A DNA stretch of 64,000 nucleotides from Micractinium sp. NFX-FRZ (taxonomy: Eukaryota; Chlorophyta; Trebouxiophyceae; Chlorellales; Chlorellaceae): the NCBI GenBank assembly GCA_029339195.1, contig JAPTJF010000277.1, positions 19,788-83,787 on the forward strand, in the 5' to 3' direction. The notes under the pieces are model-generated. The model did not search any database and was not told the origin of the DNA. It saw only the letters and a program-made list of their open reading frames with translations. Position 1 is the first letter of the stretch. Each line of letters opens with the position of its first letter. Below, in pieces: positions 3,195 through 56,700 of this stretch. A program made the translations under genes and the position numbers.

Positions 3195-3883
3195 GCAGCA
3201 TTGAGGACGGACCCTGACCAAGGCATGGACCAAGGTCCAGAGCAAAGTGGGGGAGCCTGAATGATCAGTAACGAGAGCGAGCAGGGCCTCAGCGAAGGTC
3301 CGGGGTCAAGATTGCAATTTTTTGGGTTGTTGCGGCAAACGACGTAAGCCGAGACGCCAACAAGAAGTCAGCACCCAGTTGGGTGCTGGCGCGCGGCTGC
3401 GGCAGATTCACGGGACGCGGGCTGTGTAACACATATAATGTATCATAACATGTGCCTGTGAGCATATTATGCAGCAGCGGGTGCGGCACAGACTGTGGGA
3501 CGGCATGAGGCTGCCGCTGCCCGCGGGCGCCCGCCTTGCCAGCAAGGCGGCGGGAGGGGAGGCGTTTTGCGCCGGCTCTGCTCCCGCGTGGATTCATCGT
3601 ACCGGTCAAAGTTCACAGGCTTTGTTTGAACACCGCGGTGAGTCCCCGTCTCTCTCTATTGGCCCTCGATCACATCGGCTCCGGCGTGTTCACTCGCTGC
3701 ACAGTTGCTCTCTTGGCACGCTCTCGCCAGGCCTTCAAGGCAAATGCATGGGAGACATCGGTATTGCACCTTCCAGAGCTCCGCTTGCGCCCGTCAGGCT
3801 GCCGCCGCCCAACGCCGGTGCCCACCTTGGCGCCCCCACGCGTGTTGCACTGCCTGCCCTGCCCCATCCACCCCTGCAGCCCC
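3195..3883. other. Intergenic region, 3' UTR then ankyrin-gene 5' region
   Basis: There is no supported gene here. It probably holds the 3' UTR of the upstream gene and, from about 3470, the promoter and 5' UTR of the ankyrin gene. The frame of the ankyrin ORF stays open upstream of 3884, so an earlier start cannot be excluded. The repeat homology only starts just after the ATG at 3884. Confidence 0.5.
3425..3429 (+). other. TGTAA polyadenylation signal
   Basis: TGTAA, the usual chlorophyte poly(A) signal, lies 231 nt after the stop of the K+ channel beta-subunit gene. It is in an AT-richer patch (3420-3470) that is rare in this window. Confidence 0.45.
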
Positions 3884-5918
3884 ATGACGGAGTTGCACCG
3901 CGCCGCAGCCATCGGTAACTTAACTGCGCTGCAAACGGCTCTGCAACAGCTACCGCCAGATGCCAAGGCCGCGCGCCTGGTGATTGATGCTGCCGACAAA
4001 GAGCTGCGCACGCCGCTGCACCGGGCAGCGGCAGCCGGCCACCTGGCCTGCCTGCGGGCGCTGCTAGCTCACGGCGCTGCCATGGGTGCTCAAGACGACT
4101 TGAACTACACAGCGCTGCACCATGCAGCAGAGTACGGCCACACCGAGTGTGTGCAGGCGCTGCTGCAGGCGGGTGCTGACACACGCGCCACCTGCAGCAA
4201 TGGCGGCTGCTCCCCCGCCCACCTGGCAACAGCTGGCGGGCATGTGCACTGCCTGCGGGCGTTGCTCGAGTCTGGGGTGCCAGCTGATGAGCGGGACACC
4301 ACCGGGAACACGCTGCTGATCGTTGCTGCTCTCAAGGAACGTGCGGATGCCGTCGCCCTCCTGCTTGCGACGGGCGCCGACGCGACAGCTGTCAACATTT
4401 ATGCCGACACGGCGCTGCATGCTGCGGCAGCGAGCATGAGCAGGAATGGGGAGGTGATCCGGCGCCTGGTCCAAGCAGGCGTTCCGCTGCTGGCACGCAA
4501 TTTTGCCGGCCGCACCGCACGGCAGGAGGCCGCAGGTCGGCCGCAGCGTGAGAATGCCGCGCTGCTGCAGCTTCTGGAGCGGCGCTATGCGAAAGGTGTG
4601 TTGAGATGGTGATGGTGATTGGTGCCTATAAGTAGGGGGCGGCAGAGCCGGGGCAGGCACGTGAGAAGCATGCACCAGCGGGTAGGAATAGCGTGCAGGA
4701 GCACGTGGCGTAACGCCGGACGATGTCTTTCTCGGTTGCACCAAGATTCCCGGCCCCGGTGCATGTGAAAGCAGCGTTGAGGCGATGTTCTGCAGGCACT
4801 CACTCAGCCGCCCCCCTGCCTGCCACTGCCCAGCAGGTGCCAAGAAAGCCGCCCGCAATGACCCAGCGCCCAGCATGGTGCCTGAGGGATCTGCAGCGCT
4901 GGCTGCCCGCTCCGCCAGTGAGGCTGCTCTGATTGCTCTGCTGACGGGCAAGGGCTGTAAGGAGGCAGCACCGCCGGCAGAGCAGCAGCCGCCAAGCGCC
5001 GCCTCGGCGGCAAAGGCTGCTAAGCGGCAGCGCCAGAAGGAGCGCCAGCGCCAGCAGCAGCAGCTGGAAATGCAGCAAGAGGAAGAGCAGGAACAGCAAA
5101 AGCAGGAGCAGGGGCGGCAAGAGCAGCAGGAGCAGAAGCAAGAGGAGGATCAGGAGCAGCGGTGGCAGGAAGCAGTGCCAAGCGGAACGGATGGGCAAGA
5201 GGCAGCTGTTTGCAGCAACATAGAAACTGAGCTAGGATGCAATGGCTGTGAGGCCTCTCAAAGCGTCTCTCAGGCAGAGCACGGCAGCAGCAGCAGCAGC
5301 AGCAGTGTTGACGGCAGAGCCGGCAGCAGCAGCAGCGGCAGTGGCAGCAACAGCAGCTTGGCGCCTTCCCCTCAGCACAGTGCTGCTGCCGCTGCTGCTG
5401 TTCCTGCAGCTCAAGCGGCCATGGCGGCGGCGCAGCTGCTGCCAGCTGAGCCAGCCAGCTGGTGGGGCAGTGAGCCGGCGGAGCAGGCAGAGCAGGCAGA
5501 GGCTGATGCTGCCACGTCAGCTGCCACCTCAGATGCGTCTGGAGCTGCGGCAGCTTATACTGCCCTGGAGTCTGCAGATGGCAGGGCCACCTCTGATTCC
5601 GGCATAGAGGGCGAGGATTGGGAGCTAGAGCTGTTACTGCAGCGCCTGGGCGTGGCCCCCGCAGCAGCGGCATCAGAATGCCAGCGGCACGCGGGCGCGC
5701 GTACGCTGCCGGCTGCAGGGGTGGCAGCAGACTGCATCGCCAGCGCCAGCACCCACAGTCGCACCTCCTGTGCAGCCACACCAGTACCCTGCTCCCAGCG
5801 GCAACAGCGGGAGCAGAAGCAGCAGGTGGATCCCGTGGCCCCCCCGACTCCCGACAACACGCCTGACAGAGAACTGGAAGACCTGCTGCTGCTGCTGGGG
5901 CTTAAGGCACCGCCGTAG
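3884..5918 (+). CDS. Ankyrin-repeat protein with Q-rich coiled-coil C-terminus
   Basis: Two exons, 3884-4595 and 4837-5918, joined in phase (GCGAAAG|GT...CAG|GTGCC), give 597 aa. Residues 1-230 contain about six ankyrin repeats with TPLHRAAAAGHLACLRALL, TALHHAAEYGHTECVQALL and SPAHLATAGGHVHCLRALL cores, so this is a protein-interaction scaffold. After the intron the protein changes to a charged helix (KAAKRQRQKERQRQQQQLE) with a long Gln/Glu run. Ser- and Ala-rich low complexity follows. The C-terminal leucine cluster reads RELEDLLLLLGLKAPP. That cluster echoes an internal DWELELLLQRLGVAP, suggesting two copies of a short acidic-leucine motif. No catalytic domain is visible. The partner and cellular role are unknown. 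Confidence 0.8.
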
Positions 5919-29871: not shown

Positions 29872-32800
29872 ATGACGGGCGCGCTGAGAGTCTACTGGTG
29901 AGACCTCTGCTCGTGTGCTGGTGTCATCGGCGTTCCCGAGTATGAACATGTCAGCGAGTCGGCGTGGGATTCTTGGAAGGGCGCGTTGTTGACGGCCGAA
30001 GACTGGCCCCCGCTTTCTGCAGCTTGGACGCCAGCGCTTGTGCGCTGCTGTCGGAGGACTTTACCGGCACCACGCGCTGGCACTTCCAGCGCGAGCTGGT
30101 GGCGTGCCACTCCCAAGCAAACCTGAGCGGTGGCGCTGCCGCCGCCGGCGCCCTCGGCAACAGCAGGCAAAAGCAGCAAGTGGTGCTCATCACTGGCAGC
30201 GACGGCCGTGCTGGTGTGGTGCTGCATCCCACTGCTGTAGCAAGCGAGCTGCAGCAGGCGCTGGTGGGCGTGCAGCCGGCGGGCGAGGGCAACTTGACAG
30301 CGGCTCTGAAACTTGCGCTGGTGAGATGCGCTGCGGGGGGGTTGCATGCACCACCAGCACGTCAGGAGCCCTGCACAGAGCACATGGACTGACCTGCTTC
30401 CCTTTTGAGTGTCACTGCATTTCTGCCTGCTGTCCCCTGGCCTGCCTTGCCACCTGCAGCTGATGAGCCGACGCTTCCCAGCAGGCAGCACCCACGTCAC
30501 CGCCTTTGTGGCCAGTGAGGGCGCATTGTCTGGCCTGACGGCCAGTGAGCACCCAGCAGCAGCAGTAGCAGTGGAGCTGCGGCAGAGCTACCAAGCCGCA
30601 AGGTTGAGCCTGGATGTTGCTGTGCTCTGCCCGCGCCAGGAGCTGGGGGAGGGCGCAGCGTCAGCGCTGGAGGCACTCACCGGCGGCATCAGCAGCAGCA
30701 GCATCACATCCTTGGAATGTGATGGCGGCAGCAGCAGCAGCAGCCCCCTAGAAGGTGATGGCAGCAGCGGCAGCGGCGACGCCTCTACGGCTGCCGAGCC
30801 TGCAGAAGCCCTTGTTCCCAGCAGCAGCAGCAGCAGCATGCGGCTGGTGTGGCTGCAGCCGGTGGCCACTGCTGCCGAGAGCTGGCAGCAGCTTGAGCCA
30901 GCGCTGGAGCAGCTGGAGCTGGGCGGTGCAGGCAGGTGCCACAGCGTCATGCCCGCTTCCCTTGGCGGCGGCACCGGCCAGGGCTCAGGCCTCCGCTCGG
31001 CGCTGCCCCGGCGCATCAGCCGGGCGCCACGCCAGTACGACCCCCTGCGCCACCCGCGCACGCCGCTTTTGGCGCAGCGTAGCGGGGTGCAGCAGCCGGC
31101 GCTGTGCAGGTGGGTTCTGGAGAATCGGTATCGGCAGTGGCCGGTGGTGGAAGGCCAGCCGAGTTGAGGTTCTGTTGGTGGCGCGGTCCTGCTGGGACGC
31201 TAAGCAGGGGTTGCCCGACGTAGTGAGCACGCATGCTTTCATTTACACCCTTCATGCGGCGTGCTCCTGACTGCCCGACCCACTCTGCTGCCTGCCGCCG
31301 TGTGCCCTTGGTGCAGGGGCGAGTCGCTGAGCCGGCTGGGGCACCTGTCATCCGACGGCATGATGCGCCCCTGGCTGCCCACCTACTCCTCCATTGGGCA
31401 GCAGGCAGCAGCCGCCGCAGCCGCCAGCAAAGCATCGACGGCAGCCGCGGGAGCAGCAGGCGGCAGTGGCAAGGGCGGCACGGAGTATTGCTACATCGAA
31501 GTGCAGCCCATCCCCAAGTGGAGGACGCTGCTCAAGGTGGCAGCAGGGCGCATGGTGCCGGATGGCAGTGGCCCCGTCAGCCCCTTTGCCGGCAGCATGG
31601 GCGGCAGCCACAGCGGCAGCAGCGACTACACAGCTGCCTCTGCCGAGCTGCTGCGCTCGCTGCAGGCGCTGAGCGTGTTTGATGAGCCTGATCAAGGCAG
31701 CAGCAGCGGCAGCGGCAGCGGCAGCGAGCCCTCTGAGGCAGCAGGCTCGGCAGCGGCAGCACCAGCGCCTGCACCTGCGCCCGTGTGCTACCGGCCGGAC
31801 AGGCGCAGGGGCACGCTGCGCCTGCTGCAGGGCATCAAGGAGCCGCACATGCTCAAGCTGGTGTGGTCCCCCGAGCTAGCAGAGGGCGACAGGGAGCAAC
31901 GGGCGCAGCAGCAGCAAGCGCAGGGTTTTGACATGTTTTCCAGTGCTGACGGCAGCAGCGGCAGCCTGAGTGCAGCGCACTCTGAGCTGCTGACATACAT
32001 GCCAGCGTCAGCGGTGGCTGCGTCGGCGGCACGCGGGCCGCTGGTGCAGGAGGGGTGCGAGCTGTGGGAGGCAGCTGCAGAGTTTGATTTTGAACTGCTG
32101 CTGCCCACAGCAGAGGCCGATGGCGAGCAGCAGCAGCAGCAGAGCGCAGGGGAAGCCACGGACGCGGCAGCGGGCAGCAGCAGCAGCAGCAGCAGTGCAG
32201 CAGTCACCGCTGGCAAGCTGCCAGCCATGATTGAGGCTCGGCAGCTGCCCAACGGCGCACAAGTGTTGCTCGTGGCTCCTGCCCCCAGCAGCAGCACCAG
32301 CTCCCTGCCGCGCCTGCAGCAGCCCCTGCGCCGCCCGGCCGCCGCATTCTGGCTGCAGCAGCACGTCTCACCAGACAGCCTGCAGCTGCCAGCCTATGCC
32401 ACCCCCAGCAGCAGCCAAACAGCGGCAGCTGCAGCAACGGCCTCAGCTGCTGAGGAGGCAGCGGGCGTTGAGGAGACAGCAGCTCCTGGCAGCAGCACTG
32501 CGGCGGCTCCCGATGCACAAGCCACCCCATGTGCTGCAGGCAGTGAGCCAGGCATGCAGCAGCAGGTTGCTGCGCAGCACATGCAGGGCGGGCAAGTGCA
32601 GGGTTCTGCAGCGCTGCTGGCTGGTGCCCTGCTGCGCACCCTGCAGCAGCCACCTCGAGTTGACCTGCGCCGCATGCGGCGTGATGTCAAGTCTGGTGCC
32701 ATTCAGGTGGGTGCGCGCATGTGGGTTTCAAATGGGCAGGGGCAGGCGGCTGTTTTGCATGCGCAGAGAGGCAGGCATGTGCATTGCACTACTATACTAG

Positions 32801-33797
32801 CTGCTGGTGTGTGTTGCTCTCAGCAGCGTAGCCGCCGCTGCCAGCCGCAGCCTCTTGCGCGCTGCCCATCACAGGCCCCCAAGAAGGCCCCGCCTTTGTG
32901 CTGTCTCATCTCACCGCCCGCCCTGTGCGCACTTGCACCTATGGTGTGCAGGTGACCCCAATCACTGTGGGCCCCCTCCCTGCCACGTTTGTGCGGGACA
33001 TTGTGTCTGCCCGGTCCTCCCTGCTGAGCGGCATGGGGGCTGAGAACCTGGATTCGTGGGGCGGTGGCAGCAGCACCCGCGGTAGCGGCAGTGGCGGCAG
33101 CAACGGTGCCAATGGCAGCAGCAGCGGCGGCAGCAGCGGCGCCGCTGATGGCAAGAGTCCTGCCGGGACGGAGGCAGCCAGCAACCAGGGTGCAACTGCC
33201 GCTGACAGCAGCGGCGGGCTGAGCGACACAGACCTGCGGAGGCACAAAGCCGCTGCCTGGTCGCTGCTGCGGCAGCGGCTGAAGCAGCCGGCGGGACGCA
33301 ACAGCAGCAGCAGCAGTAGCGCTGCTGACCCCCCGGCCACCCTGGCAGGTGCTGCCCAGGAGCGTACAGCAGCAGCGGAGCCGGCCAGCGCCTGTGCAGC
33401 TCCAGTGGCTGCTCAGACGGGGGCAGCCAGCGCTGCCATTCCATGCAGCACCCCGGTGCCGACCCCGCACGCGTCTGAGGGCATGTCTGAGAGCTGCGGC
33501 AGCAGCGCTGCGGGCACGCCCTTTGGCACCCCGCTGCACATCCTGCCCAGCCGGGTGGTGCACCAGCGGCACAGCGGCGGCTTGGCAAGCTCCGCCGACG
33601 ACGCTGACGCTGTTGCGGCCATTGCTGCCGAGGCTGCGACGGCAGCAGAGGAGGTGGCGGGCAGGGAGCCTGCTGGGCTGCCGGGCGCCCCTGATGGCTG
33701 CTGCGTCAAACGCGAGGGTTCGGCTGTGCTGGTGGGTGTGAGCGGGCAGCAGGATGCACACAGCGATGGCATTGACCCGCTGTTCAAGCTGGAATGA
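29872..33797 (+). CDS. Rpn10-like VWA domain fused to Rpn13-like Pru domain
   Basis: Five exons (29872-29897, 30023-30320, 30460-31109, 31317-32706, 32952-33797) give 1069 aa. The N-terminus follows Rpn10 through the VWA fold: MTGALRVYCLDASACALL (compare the Rpn10 start MVLEST...CVDNS), a strand-turn-strand VVLITGSDGRAGVVLHPT, and then VQPAGEGNLTAALKLAL. It continues with HVTAFV and LSLDVAVL, ending near residue 166. After a Ser/Ala linker come Pru-like segments: LLKVAAGRM (about 395), YRPDRRRGTLRLLQ followed by LKLVWSP (about 485-505), NGAQVLLVAP (about 636) and AAAFWLQQ (about 668). These match the Rpn13 order AGKM, PDxRKGL, W, V-LKF, FFWMQ, with low-complexity insertions. LLRTLQQPPRVDLRRMRRDV near 770 may be a DEUBAD remnant. 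No UIM was seen. Expected role: 26S proteasome ubiquitin reception. The weakest point is that the tiny first exon rests on splice phase and homology. Confidence 0.72.
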
Positions 33798-34127
33798 GCT
33801 GGCGCTGCGCCCAGCTGGCGCTGCCCCACTAGCTGGGCTGAGCAGGCGCTGCCTGTTGCACTTGTCGCCTGCATACCTGCTGCCAGCGCCCCCCCGCCTG
33901 CCAGCCCCTCTACTTCCCTCGCTGCCGTGCATTGCGGCTTGAACTGTCCCCTCCCCCATCCTCTCGATGCCGCCCACACAATCACCTGCCGGCCCGTTGT
34001 ACTTTGCATATTCTTGTTGTACAGTCACCCCTATACCTGCCCCTCCTCTTGGTCCATGCCGCATGCCAGTGTTCCACTGGCACCATTTGCTGTGCGTCGC
34101 TGTTTGTGCCGGCTGTGGTGGACAAGC

Positions 34128-34132
34128 TGTAA
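34128..34132 (+). other. TGTAA polyadenylation signal
   Basis: TGTAA lies about 330 nt after the stop of the VWA/Pru gene, in the 735 bp tail-to-tail gap before the plastid-protein gene. Nothing else was recognised in that gap (33798-34532). Confidence 0.4.
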
Positions 34133-34532
34133 CATAGCTGCTGTGATAGTCGGAGGCAATGTGGTGACAGACAGAGGGGTGATGGGAGGAGCAGGGCCGG
34201 GTGCGCTGCCAGGCGGCTGTCCTCAGTGCAAGGAGCGGCAGCTCAAATGCCACCGGGGGAAGAGGGGAGGGAAAAGCACAGCCAGGTGAGGCAACACGCA
34301 AGCAGCTGTGCAGTAGACAGCCGGCTTCAAAACTGGGAGGCTGGGCAGGAACGGGGGTCGAGAAAGAGCAAGGTGTGCTGCACTGCACCTGGGCGCGCAG
34401 GGGTGCCGCCGCGCTGGATGGTGGGGCAGCGCCAGCGGCGAGCAATTTAGAGGAGGAGGAGAACAGGAGATGCTGGGGTGGCTAAGGGCTCGGCCCGACC
34501 CACATCAACAGGCGCTTGGCATGGCGCTGCAA

Positions 34533-39900: not shown

Positions 39901-42083
39901 CAAGGCCAAGTTTGTGGTGGGGGACCCAACCTACTTCCCAGAGAAGGTGTGTGGGGACGGGGGGGAATGGTGTGCTTTATTATTCGACTTGAAGACGACA
40001 TGACGGAAGGGCAACTGAGCCTCTTGATTGACTGACGTGGCATGTGCGTTGTGGCTGGGGGTTGGGATGGTGGGCAGCGAAAAAGAGCTGCCCGCCGGCT
40101 ACTTGCTCCCTGGGCGGATGTTGCCCGGCATGACCAGCCAGTTCCCAGTGTGCACGGCAACTTCTGCATGTATCCACCCTCGCTTCGCTTCTCCACAACC
40201 TCTTCCCCCAACCCTGCCCCTGGGCCTCCCCCGCAGGTGCGCAAGACGGCGCGTGTGGTGCGCGCCATGTGTGTGATGAGCCACCCCATCCCGTCCACCA
40301 ACGACAGCCACAGCGTGCAGATCATCCTGCCGCAGAAGCAGCTCAACCGCCGGCACGGTGAGCGGGCGGGCGGGCGGGCAAGCGACTTTGCAGAGGCGGT
40401 GCTGCACATGCCAGGCAGGGGTTCTGCACGCCTTCTACCGCTCCTACTCCCACACAACTTTCTGACTGTAGGCTTCCTCCTCACTTCTGCGCCTTGCCCC
40501 CCGACACCTGCATTGTCTGCTGGCCCCGTGTGCGCCTTCAGGCTTGCCTCCCATCATTCTGCTCTGTCGTCCTTGCCCGCTCCCCCTTTGCCGGCCACCT
40601 ACAGCTTCTGTGCTCCCACCCCCACACCATCCGTGTGTTCTGTCCTTCGCCCCTGGCGCTCCTCCCACCCTTTCCCGTCTCGTCATTCTCTCCCCCCACC
40701 TGTTTTCTGTATCCCCCTGCAGACATCTACGTCTTCTGCTGCTCGTACTCGCACAACGTGGCGCCAAAGGACAAGTGGATTGCGTTTGTGTCCACCACCG
40801 TGGAGACCTCGGACCCGCAGGCTGAGCTGGCGCCAGGTGGGCGAGGGCGAGGGGCCCTGCTGGCTGGGTGGCAGCGTTGGTGGAGTGGGGTGCATGTGCC
40901 GCACCACCGCCCTCACCCACGGCGGTGTTGCCCGGGCAGGAAGAGGCACCACTTGCCCGCCTATCTTACGCTGGATGGCCACATGCTTTTCTTTACGTGA
41001 CAACGAGCACGCAACATATTGATGCCAGAGGGGCGCACTGCCAGCACATCGACATGCAGGCCCGCGGCTGCCTGGCAAGCTTTAGCGGGAGGGTTGCAAA
41101 GGCTTGCCCACCGACCATCTATGCGTTGCCTCTGTGCAGGCCTTCACCTGCTGGTCACGCTTGAGTACAGGCTTGCAGAGGCTTGCTTGCCGACCATGTA
41201 TGCACTCTTTCATCTGTGCAGGCCTGCAGCTGCTGGGCAAGATTGACGAAAAGTTTGTGGAGGTGGTGGACGTGTGGGAGCCCCTGGAGGACGGCAGCCG
41301 CGACAAGGCATTCATCTCAAAGGTGGGCTGCTCCCCCCCCCCCCTGCATCACCCTCATTTATTTCATTCCATTCTAGTCTGGGGCAGTCTGTGGGCGGGG
41401 CCAGAGGGTGAGCGCCTGCCGCAGCCAAGCTGGGCCATCATGTCACAAATGCCGCTCCAGCGTGGGTCAGGGTGTGGGGCCAGGTGTGGTGGGCGTGGCG
41501 CGGGACTTGGGAGGCGAGGCCCGCCCACCCGGTGACTGGTCACCCACCCACCCAGTAGCCCACCCTCTGGTTCCCATCTTCTCCTCACTTGCAGGGCTAC
41601 GATGCCACCCCGCACTTTGAAAGCGGGGGTGCGCGCCGTGGCCCCACCCCTATCCACCCCAGCTTGCCTACCCTCTCACCCACCCACTTGCCCACCCTCT
41701 TCCCCTTCTACTGCAGGGCTACGACGCCACCTCCCACTTTGAGACGGAGATCCACGATGTGCTGGACATGTACCGCCGCATCACAGGTAGGGTGGGCGGG
41801 GCTTTACAGTACCACAGCCAGGGGAGGGTGCTGCCTGAGGATGTGCTGGACATGTACCGCCGCGTCACAGGTGGGGTGGGCGAGGTGGAATGCAGTACCA
41901 CAGCCTCTTGCGGGTGCCGCCCAGGATTCCTCGCACCAAACTGTACATCTGCTGTACATCTGCCGTACTTCTGCTGCACATCACGCATTCCCCCCCTGCC
42001 CCCTGCCTGTTATGCCCCCTGCTGCAGGCAAGCCGCTGGATCTTGACAAGGAGGACCTGCGCAAGCGGCAGGAGGCGCAGTAG
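36967..42083 (+). CDS. GDI1: Rab GDP-dissociation inhibitor (GDI)
   Basis: Fourteen exons (36967-37053, 37170-37232, 37489-37581, 37900-38007, 38390-38503, 38686-38739, 38908-39038, 39364-39424, 39782-39946, 40237-40357, 40723-40836, 41222-41322, 41717-41786, 42028-42083) give 445 aa, the normal GDI length. The start [20 protein letters not shown] and the following [11 protein letters not shown] are the conserved dinucleotide-fold and Rab-binding segments of the GDI/REP family. Other hallmark blocks are [73 protein letters not shown] and [10 protein letters not shown]. The protein extracts GDP-bound prenylated Rab GTPases from membranes and recycles them in vesicle traffic. Four of the junctions have extra diverged copies inside the flanking introns. 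The true exons were chosen by conservation and phase. Confidence 0.96.
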
Positions 42084-53700: not shown

Positions 53701-56700
53701 CTGCGCCACCCTGCCCCGCCCTGCCTTGTGATGTGCCCTGCCCCGCCCTGGCCTCACCTGCCCCGCCCAGCCCCGCCCTCCCTGGCCCCCTGTTTGCCTG
53801 CAGGCGCTGTGGCGCTGGTGGACGTCCGCTCCCGCGCCTGGCCGCTGCTCTACGCCAACGACTCGTTTGCCTGGGAGGAGGGCTGCGGCAGCGCAGAGGA
53901 GCTGTCTGGGGCGGGCGGATTCTGGGACCTGTTTGAGCCAGCGGGGAGCGGGAAGGAGGTGCGGGGAGCAGGGGAGAGGCGGCATGGGGAGGGGGCCGCT
54001 GGCTGGCTTGGCGGCTGGCTGCCGTGTGTGGGTTGGCCGGCACAGGGTGGGTGCGGAGCATGCTGAGAGGCAGCAGTCACGCCTGTATGCCTGCCTGCTT
54101 GCCTGCCTGTCTACCCACCTTTCCCTCTCGTCCCCAAACGCGCTCACCGCTGCCGCCCCCCCACCGCTGCTGCCCCGCCCGCCGCCGCAGGCAGAGGAGG
54201 CGAGGAGGGCGTTGGATGCAGCGGTGGCGGCTGGCCGCCCCGCCCGCGCTGACGTGGCCTGCAAGCGCAGCGGGCGCGTCGTGACGGTGGTACTGCGCCC
54301 CGGCTCCTCCGACCAGCTGCAGCCCACCAAGGCCATCGGCATTCCAAATTGGGTGCCTTCTGAGAAGGCGCCCCACATGGGCTGCCACGCCGGTGGGTGC
54401 GACCCCGGGGGCGGAGCGGGGGCCGGTTGTTGCGACCGGCGCCTGCGCCTGGCTGAGGCAACACTGGCTGCATGCTGGGGGGGGCTGAGCTGCCGTGAGC
54501 TGCTTCCACTGCCTGCCAAGGCTGCCTGACCCCGCACAGCTGCAGGCGCCGCCGAGTTTCCCACCCACCGCTCCTGTCCAGCCGACAACAGTCTGCCCCC
54601 GCTGCCGCTGCCCTGCCGCCCCCGCCTGCAGGCGCCCTGCCAGGCGGGCTGGACTCTGGCGGCGACGTGTTTGAGGGCCCCGCTGCCCCCGCCGAGGGAG
54701 CATCCTCCCCGCAGCTTGCCGCCTGCTTCTGGTTTGTCGAGGTGGAGGGCTCCGCCCCCGGCACGCCCGCCCTAGGCTCTGCTGGCAGTGTGGCGTCCTC
54801 CGCCCCCGGCGCGCCCGGCACGCCCGTCGGCGGCGACGCCGAGGCGCCCCGCACAGCCGGCCGCCGCGCGGCGCTGCGCAGCTTCTCTTCAGAGCCGCTT
54901 CCGGGGCTGCTGGAGGGGCTGGAGATGGGGCCCCTGGTGGGGTCGGGCTCCTTTGGGCGCGTGTATCGCGGCCTGTGGCAGGGCCGTGTGGTGGCCGTCA
55001 AGGTCATCGACTGCACCCACAACTGCCAGGTGTGCTGGGAGGACGTGTGCTTGTGCTTGTGCTTGTGCGTGCGCGTGTGGCTGGGGAGTGTGCGGCAGGT
55101 GCGCAGGGCAGAGAGGCTGGCAGGCAAGGCAGAGAGGCTGGCGGGCAGGGCAGAGAGGCTGGGGCCGAAACGTGGGCCGGCTTGGGGGGCAAGGGATCGA
55201 GCGCAGGCGCACATCTGCGATGCCTGGGTGCATGCTGCCCTTCTCAGCCTGCCCGCCCCGCCCTGCCCAGCCTTACACTGCCTGGCTCACAGCCTCCCCC
55301 GCCACGCCCCCGCCTTTACTATTGTCTTGCCTGTTGTCTTGCCCTGCCCGCTTCCCTGCCTGCCCTCCACGCAGCCTGGCTCTACGGACGTGGCCGAGGT
55401 GGCGGTGAGGGAGGCTGAGCTGTCCAAGAGCCTGGACCACCCATGCATCGTCAAGGTGGGGAAAAGGGAATGTACAAAAAAATGTCTGCGGCTCGTGTTA
55501 AACTTTGTAGGCCCCAGCCAAGCAGGGAAGGGGGCAGGGGGGATGCCGGACAGGCTGGCCACCACGCCGTGCCTGGTGCGAGGGGTGGGAGGCAGACACA
55601 CAAGCACATGCTTGTGGGCAAGAGGCGCGCAGCAGCCCACTGCAATTCTAGCTTGTTGTGAGGCCCCTTGGCAGGTGGCTCCCCCAGAGCTGTTGATCCT
55701 ACGTGTGCATTGCTAGCCCGTTCTGCCTTTGTAAACTTGTTGCTGCCCTGCCCTGCCCTGTCTGCCTGCGCGCCTGCAGACGTTTGAGTATGCCATGAAG
55801 GCGGGCAGCACGCTGTGGATGGTGCAGCAGATGTGCAATCACGGCACGCTCATCGAGGCAGGCACGTGGGGCGGGCCGCTGGAGGCGGGCGGTGTGGCGG
55901 GGTGGCATAGTTGCGGCGGCGGCAGGATTGGGCCCAACTTCCGTGCCGCAGCTTGCAGTGGGTGGAGGGCGCCATGCATTCCAGCAATGCAGCCTGCCCC
56001 AGCACCGTGCTTCTTGCCCTGCCTGCCTGCTCAACTGCCGGCCTGCCTGCTTGCTAACCTGCCTGCCTGCTCACCTGCCTGCCTGCCTGCTCACCTGCCT
56101 GCCTGCCTGCGCACCTGCCTGCCTGCCTGCGCACCTGCTGCCTGCCTGCGCACCTGCCTGCGTGCCTGCTCACCTGCCTGCCTGCTCACCTGCCGGCCTG
56201 CAGTGGACCGCGGGTGGATGCGCAAGAGTCGGAGCCTGACGGCGCCGCCCGACATGCGCGCTGTGCTGCGCACGCTGCGTGAGGTGGCGGATGGCATGGC
56301 CTTCCTGCACTCCCAGGATGTCCTGCACTGCGACCTCACTGGTGGGTGTGTGCACAAACAGACAGGGGTGCCAGTGGGTGGGTGGGTATTTGAGTAGGAA
56401 AAATCAGGTTCTGCACTGCTGTCTCGCCAGGGGGTGGCTGGCTGGCTGGCTGGCTGAGCAGGGTTGGTTTTGGGGGTGGTGTGCGGGGGCGCGCAGCAGA
56501 CGCACGAGGGCAAGGAGCGGGCGCCCGCCGCTTTCCTGCCCGCGCGCCCGCTCATGCCACTGCTCGGGCGTCCGTTCACCCTCCCATGCTTCCCACCCAA
56601 CCCTGTTCTGTCCTTTCCGCCTTGCGGGCAATGCAGTATGCTGTAGGGTGCTGGAGGCGGCTGAGGCGTAGCAAGGCCTTCCCATGCTGCACATCCAGTC

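Follow-up and report, generated by a model that had tools for sequence, protein, structure and literature searches.

Rpn10 and Rpn13 are separate 19S subunits of the proteasome and are treated as independent receptors. In the green alga Micractinium sp. NFX-FRZ, a single gene on the plus strand of a 64,000-nucleotide stretch of DNA (contig JAPTJF010000277.1, positions 19,788 to 83,787; hereafter the window, whose own numbering is used below) encodes a protein in which a divergent Rpn10-type VWA domain appears to be followed, on the same chain, by a region resembling the Pru domain of Rpn13. Work in Arabidopsis suggests that the structural and RPN2-docking roles of Rpn10 and Rpn13 can outweigh ubiquitin binding (PMC11546751); D11 is needed for the incorporation of Rpn10, and an Rpn10 devoid of UIMs (N215) rescued the growth defects examined, its protein being undetectable. 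In the human complex, 14 residues of hRpn13 are named as contacting the tail of Rpn2, and on the hRpn2 side prolines together with Phe, Tyr and Ile residues are listed as important to Rpn13 binding (PMC5494190).

The reading frame of the combined gene is confirmed to be intact across 29872–33797, where 1069 codons and a TGA stop run in a single phase through five exons separated by four GT-AG introns. A preliminary description of this DNA had proposed the same phase-consistent five-exon model, and its coordinates, introns and quoted landmarks are all present. The donors read GTGAG or GTGGG (four of four) and the acceptors TGCAG (four of four), and the introns contain 22–25% T, compared with about 8–16% in 180-base windows inside exons 2–5 (exon 1, of 26 bases, was left out of this comparison); intron 3, which lies between the two halves of the gene, resembles the other introns in both splice signals and T content. 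The short first exon is supported by the start of the protein, MTGALRVYCLD11, because the distance from the Met to the Asp, D11 in the DxS motif, equals that of Rpn10. TGTAA is a likely polyadenylation signal of Chlorella variabilis and may have this role in many green algae (PMC3946568). Between 28547 and 36143, its only plus-strand occurrence is at 34128, beyond the last exon; as support for the end of the gene this is weak, because 18 copies of TGTAA are found on the plus strand of the 64 kb. Inspected by eye, the RPN13 gene of the alga has a TGTAA shortly past its stop codon, and its RPN10 gene has none in the approximately 360 bases shown.

The N-terminal half, from amino acid (aa) 1 to about 188, is best described as a divergent Rpn10-type VWA domain, in which the DxS motif with D11 is kept and the similarity is clearly beyond chance. 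When the un-excised 184-residue N-terminus was compared with 177,635 distinct PDB sequences, the only two matches obtained at E-values up to 10 were to Rpn10 entries (26S subunit 4 homolog), with E 0.37 and 0.38. A hidden Markov model (HMM) built from four Rpn10 sequences gives this N-terminus 12.8 bits, compared with 7.5 for the best shuffle, so that none of 5000 shuffles, 3833 of which received a score, reaches the real value. Similarly, a gapped profile score of 67.9, in which insertions are nearly free, is reached by none of 1000 shuffles at each of three block sizes and by none of 300 column-shuffled profiles. Tiles of open reading frames (ORFs), taken from the parts of the window beyond the gene and from other loci, do not reach it either (0 of 61 in a half-overlapping set; 0 of 178 for the 184-aa version). 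Several observations weigh against this assignment, however, beginning with an identity to Rpn10 of 20–22%. The Rpn10 profile gives human p44 a higher score (100.9) than the algal VWA (67.9), and single Rpn10 sequences separate the algal domain less well, with 0, 2, 2 and 0 of 300 shuffles reaching the real score (z 2.6–5.0). In a control in which the excision of inserts was guided, the real VWA reached 40.3 bits and the best shuffle 46.3. A VWA of the TFIIH p44 type was rejected as the identity of the domain, since the comparison with human p44, the one p44 sequence tried, is reached by 224 of 400 shuffles (z -0.22), and PF04056 (Ssl1-type) is not matched in a Pfam scan of the whole protein; the Ssl1-type exons of the alga are located on contig C86. 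MED25 was considered as well and dropped on the basis of N-terminal motifs only. No UIM is found in the Pfam scans of the protein, and the alga's own RPN10, as a control, gives three UIM stretches; a VWA without UIMs can nevertheless do structural work, as the rescue by N215 in Arabidopsis indicates.

The Pru-like half carries the landmarks AAGRM, YRPDRRRG, HMLKLVW, LTYMP, NGAQVLLV and FWLQ in this order, spread apart by inserts. After automatic removal of the inserts, PF04683 is the sole Pfam family matched, at 32.9 bits (gathering score 25) and an E-value of 9.2e-8, and the best of the equally treated shuffles judged by Pfam attains 6.9e-6; the 60 shuffles scanned were the top 60 of 1000 by guiding score, and 10 of them lay above the real sequence on that score. 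Moreover, none of 37 ORF tiles reaches the Pru score of the 310-aa region. A considerable body of results stands against a Pru domain. Pfam finds no match in the whole 1069-aa protein and no PF04683 in the un-excised Pru pieces; a local Pru HMM applied to the un-excised sequence matches at the expected position, but with E 0.44; a hand-trimmed core scores 22.3 bits for PF04683, under the cut-off of 25, and has no match by phmmer in PDB; and the un-excised region yields nine weak phmmer matches in PDB, to armadillo-repeat designs, which count against a Pru fold. PF04683 is also seen in 10 of the 60 excised shuffles (five among the first 18, five among the remaining 42), one of the first 18 standing just above the cut-off at 25.2 bits, and the best of the last 42 may likewise exceed 25. 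At three block sizes, 11, 8 and 2 of 1000 shuffles attain the crude gapped Pru score of 50.8, as do 10 of 1000 in a further shuffle set and 3 of 300 column-shuffled profiles. In the guided excision control, judged against the guiding sequences, the real Pru region (33.2 bits) falls below the best shuffle (51.8 bits); because shuffles treated alike outscored the real sequences, the E-values from guided excision are to be discounted. Single-sequence AlphaFold predictions of two window pieces were uninformative, with a mean predicted local distance difference test score (pLDDT) of 37.0 and 35.6. The Pru similarity, visible after insert removal only, has a p of about 0.001–0.01 by two fairer tests and no support in a third. 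On balance, a Pru fold in aa 396–679 is quite probable, suggestive rather than proven, and this estimate is raised because the region shares one gene with an Rpn10-type VWA. The order of Rpn10-type VWA and then Pru, as first described, is strongly supported in its VWA part and moderately in its Pru part. DEUBAD (PF16550) is not matched by Pfam in the protein, and the alga's own RPN13, used as a control, gives 78.8 bits for it.

Ordinary counterparts of both subunits are encoded elsewhere in the assembly, which was searched over 66 Mb in 838 contigs. Such a genome search had been proposed in the preliminary description, and it found the two genes separately: an RPN10 on contig C367, in which VWA_2 is matched at E 2e-27 and three UIM stretches are present, and which places the alga nearer to plants than to animals (62% identity to the proteins of spinach and Arabidopsis, 52% to that of humans); and an RPN13 on contig C232, with Pru at 87.5 bits followed by the DEUBAD noted above. 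The alga's RPN2 lies on the minus strand of contig C187 (L029) and ends, as read by eye, in ...EPPPPEPFEYIPS, a tail close to the human Rpn13-docking tail in which the hRpn2 prolines, Phe, Tyr and Ile named above are kept. With the VWA of the combined gene as the query, the genome returned the gene itself (two exons) and two weak matches (E 0.17 and 0.39); with its Pru-like region, the gene itself and five weak matches (E 0.009 to 0.14). These seven weak matches score 23.5–29.2 on the Pru or Rpn10 profile, under the shuffle means, but for two of them (L012 and L017, minus-strand matches) the strand was probably misread, and these two do not count. The combined gene thus appears to be single-copy as far as searched, and exon 2, the only query used on viral and prokaryotic contigs, gave 92 and 591 pattern matches there but no relatives. 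By eye, its VWA introns lie at positions that differ from those of the alga's RPN10, and for this reason it is probably no recent copy of that gene.

The residues expected to contact ubiquitin and RPN2 give a mixed picture. At L56, F76, D79 and F98, the ubiquitin-contact positions of Rpn13 tested in published work (PMC11546751), the combined protein aligns Met, Met, Ser and Ala, none of the four being identical, with the alignment uncertain around F98. At these positions, Leu, Leu, Glu and Phe are found in the alga's own RPN13. The Leu in place of Phe76 and the Glu in place of Asp79 (L002, contig C232, minus strand, about 4700–5010) show that strict conservation of the F76/D79 ubiquitin contact does not hold in the lineage. 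Because the L56 and F76 positions stay hydrophobic, and because the ordinary RPN13 of the alga itself carries Leu at F76, D79 and F98 alone argue clearly against ubiquitin binding. Of the 14 hRpn13 residues contacting the Rpn2 tail, M31, P40, W108, Q110 and P112 (the last after a three-residue insertion) are kept in an alignment that is uncertain in places. Against docking on RPN2, the other nine, L33, T36 (by eye), T37, V38, T39, V85, V93, V95 and R104, differ; the five that remain may reflect detection bias, because they are among the most conserved of the family; and Arabidopsis F67 and F88 (human F76 and F98) are required for RPN2 binding, M22 (human M31) not being required (PMC11546751), so that the change of both equivalents in the combined protein weakens the docking step. 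The count of Rpn2 contacts is itself not discriminating, because the alga's own RPN13 keeps just 6 of the 14.

Table 1. Features of the combined VWA/Pru-like gene (window coordinates; aa, amino acids)
Feature	Position	Strand	Content
Exon 1	29872..29897	+	aa 1-8 and first two bases of codon 9 (MTGALRVY/C); VWA start; basis, Met-Asp11 spacing
Exon 2	30023..30320	+	aa 9-108; DxS motif; bulk of the Rpn10-type VWA match
Exon 3	30460..31109	+	aa 109-324; remainder of VWA (alignment to about aa 188, = 30699; a last strand may lie near aa 233-243), followed by Ser-rich linker
Intron 3	31110..31316	+	between VWA half and Pru half; GTGGGT...TGCAG, 24% T, no plus-strand TGTAA
Exon 4	31317..32706	+	aa 325-788; contains the Pru-like region
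Pru-like region	31528..32379	+	aa 396-679; five inserts of 14-72 residues, mostly low-complexity
Exon 5	32952..33797	+	aa 789-1069; C-terminus, low-complexity stretches, no Pfam match, stop TGA
TGTAA	34128..34132	+	possible green-algal polyadenylation signal, 331 bases 3' of stop codon

Other open frames of the window include one rich in ankyrin repeats at 3509–4609 on the plus strand (PF13637, E 1.3e-32), another at 40036–41019 on the plus strand that encodes a partial GDP dissociation inhibitor (PF00996, E 2.4e-14), and one of 405 aa at 54499–55713 on the plus strand with a weak protein kinase match (PF00069, E 4.2e-4, under the cut-off). Antisense to exon 5, a 553-aa open frame without a Pfam match occupies 32823–34481 on the minus strand and probably only mirrors the GC-rich coding strand.

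We tentatively favor the reading that this gene encodes a diverged accessory protein or scaffold associated with the proteasome, not a fused receptor replacing RPN10 and RPN13. Action on the 19S particle, as scaffold or competitor, is the best single interpretation because D11 is kept and because an Rpn10 lacking UIMs rescues the Arabidopsis mutant. The predicted architecture comprises an Rpn10-type VWA lacking UIMs, then an extended low-complexity linker, and finally a Pru-like module (an Rpn13-type PH fold) swollen by long loops and without DEUBAD. The Pru-like module would dock on the proline-rich C-terminal tail of RPN2, which is retained in the alga; the VWA module would either compete for the Rpn10 site or hold another client; and the protein could then serve some proteasomes as a tethered scaffold or regulator, not as a ubiquitin receptor. 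A bolder and rather improbable version would make it a lineage-specific, covalently bridged 19S accessory subunit, whose Rpn10-type and Rpn13-type docking modules on one chain simultaneously span or occupy both places, the RPN2 tail and the site of Rpn10, and which marks or blocks a subset of proteasomes without binding ubiquitin. The stronger claim made initially, that the gene is a bona fide fused ubiquitin receptor, is highly improbable: the order of the domains, the hydrophobic Met and Met at L56/F76, and the lack of Phe at F76 in the alga's own RPN13 would suit it, but no UIM or DEUBAD is matched, D79 is replaced by Ser and F98 by Ala, and RPN10, with its VWA and three UIMs, and RPN13, with its Pru and DEUBAD, exist as separate genes. 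The alternative offered alongside that claim, a diverged scaffold that has lost the UIM, fits better.

A real two-domain protein working outside the proteasome, with its VWA and PH-like folds reused elsewhere in the cell as protein-binding modules, is unlikely. Such reuse would account for the strong divergence (20–22% identity), for the change of the D79 and F98 contacts and of nine of the 14 named Rpn2 contacts, and for the alteration of the RPN13 positions needed for RPN2 binding in Arabidopsis, and the sites on the proteasome are already filled by the ordinary RPN10 and RPN13; on the other hand, both modules indicate the same machine, which makes an unrelated recruitment unlikely, and D11 and the RPN2 docking tail are present. 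That the VWA is real and the Pru a chance resemblance within a low-complexity region seems distinctly unlikely. The missing Pfam match without excision, the guided control won by shuffles, the crude test reached by 2–11 of 1000 shuffles, and the recurrence of PF04683 in 10 of 60 excised shuffles all speak for chance, but Pfam parts the real sequence from the best 60 of 1000 equally treated shuffles (E 9.2e-8, the best of them 6.9e-6), and not one of the 37 ORF tiles attains the score. Finally, the frames of exon 3 and exon 4 each remain open past their splice sites, as would be expected of two genes misjoined across intron 3 or of a decayed pseudogene; either is very unlikely, given that intron 3 matches the other introns, that the plus strand has no TGTAA between 28547 and 34128, and that five exons stay open over 1069 codons.

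The preliminary description knew of no described fusion of this kind, and the literature searched agrees, within titles and abstract openings that represent the smaller part of the matching papers and no protein database. The listed titles and abstract openings on Rpn10/Rpn13 fusions, algal proteasome subunits and VWA/Pru architectures describe no VWA and Pru arrangement, and the word fusion is absent from the main text, as available, of "Evolution of Proteasome Regulators in Eukaryotes" (PMC4453063). This is no proof of novelty, because the search covered no eukaryotic protein collection. Giardia Rpn10 (PMC4352536) is likewise an Rpn10-type protein, with a reduced VWA, but the title and abstract opening of that report mention no Pru-like part. 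TFIIH p44/SSL1 belongs to a VWA family related to Rpn10, but human p44 is no more similar to the algal protein than shuffles are. The protein resembles RPN10/PSMD4 in its VWA, whose DxS motif is equally far from the initiator Met, and in the sequence ...GEGNLTAALKLA, Rpn10 being the only PDB protein matched by its un-excised N-terminus; it differs in its 20–22% identity, in the absence of a UIM match and in a long Pru-like and low-complexity C-terminal part, and from the alga's own RPN10 also in the placement of its VWA introns (by eye). With RPN13/ADRM1, it shares the landmarks AG-x-M, PDxRxG, W and FW-x-Q in the same order and, after automatic insert removal, a PF04683 match above the cut-off; it differs in its five long inserts, in the absence of a DEUBAD match, in the replacement of D79 and F98, and in the VWA placed in front. 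The gene may represent a lineage-specific proteasome regulator in green algae, and a natural protein that joins both docking folds without UIM or DEUBAD would offer a natural test of the idea, drawn from Rpn10 and Rpn13 in Arabidopsis, that structural roles can outweigh ubiquitin binding.

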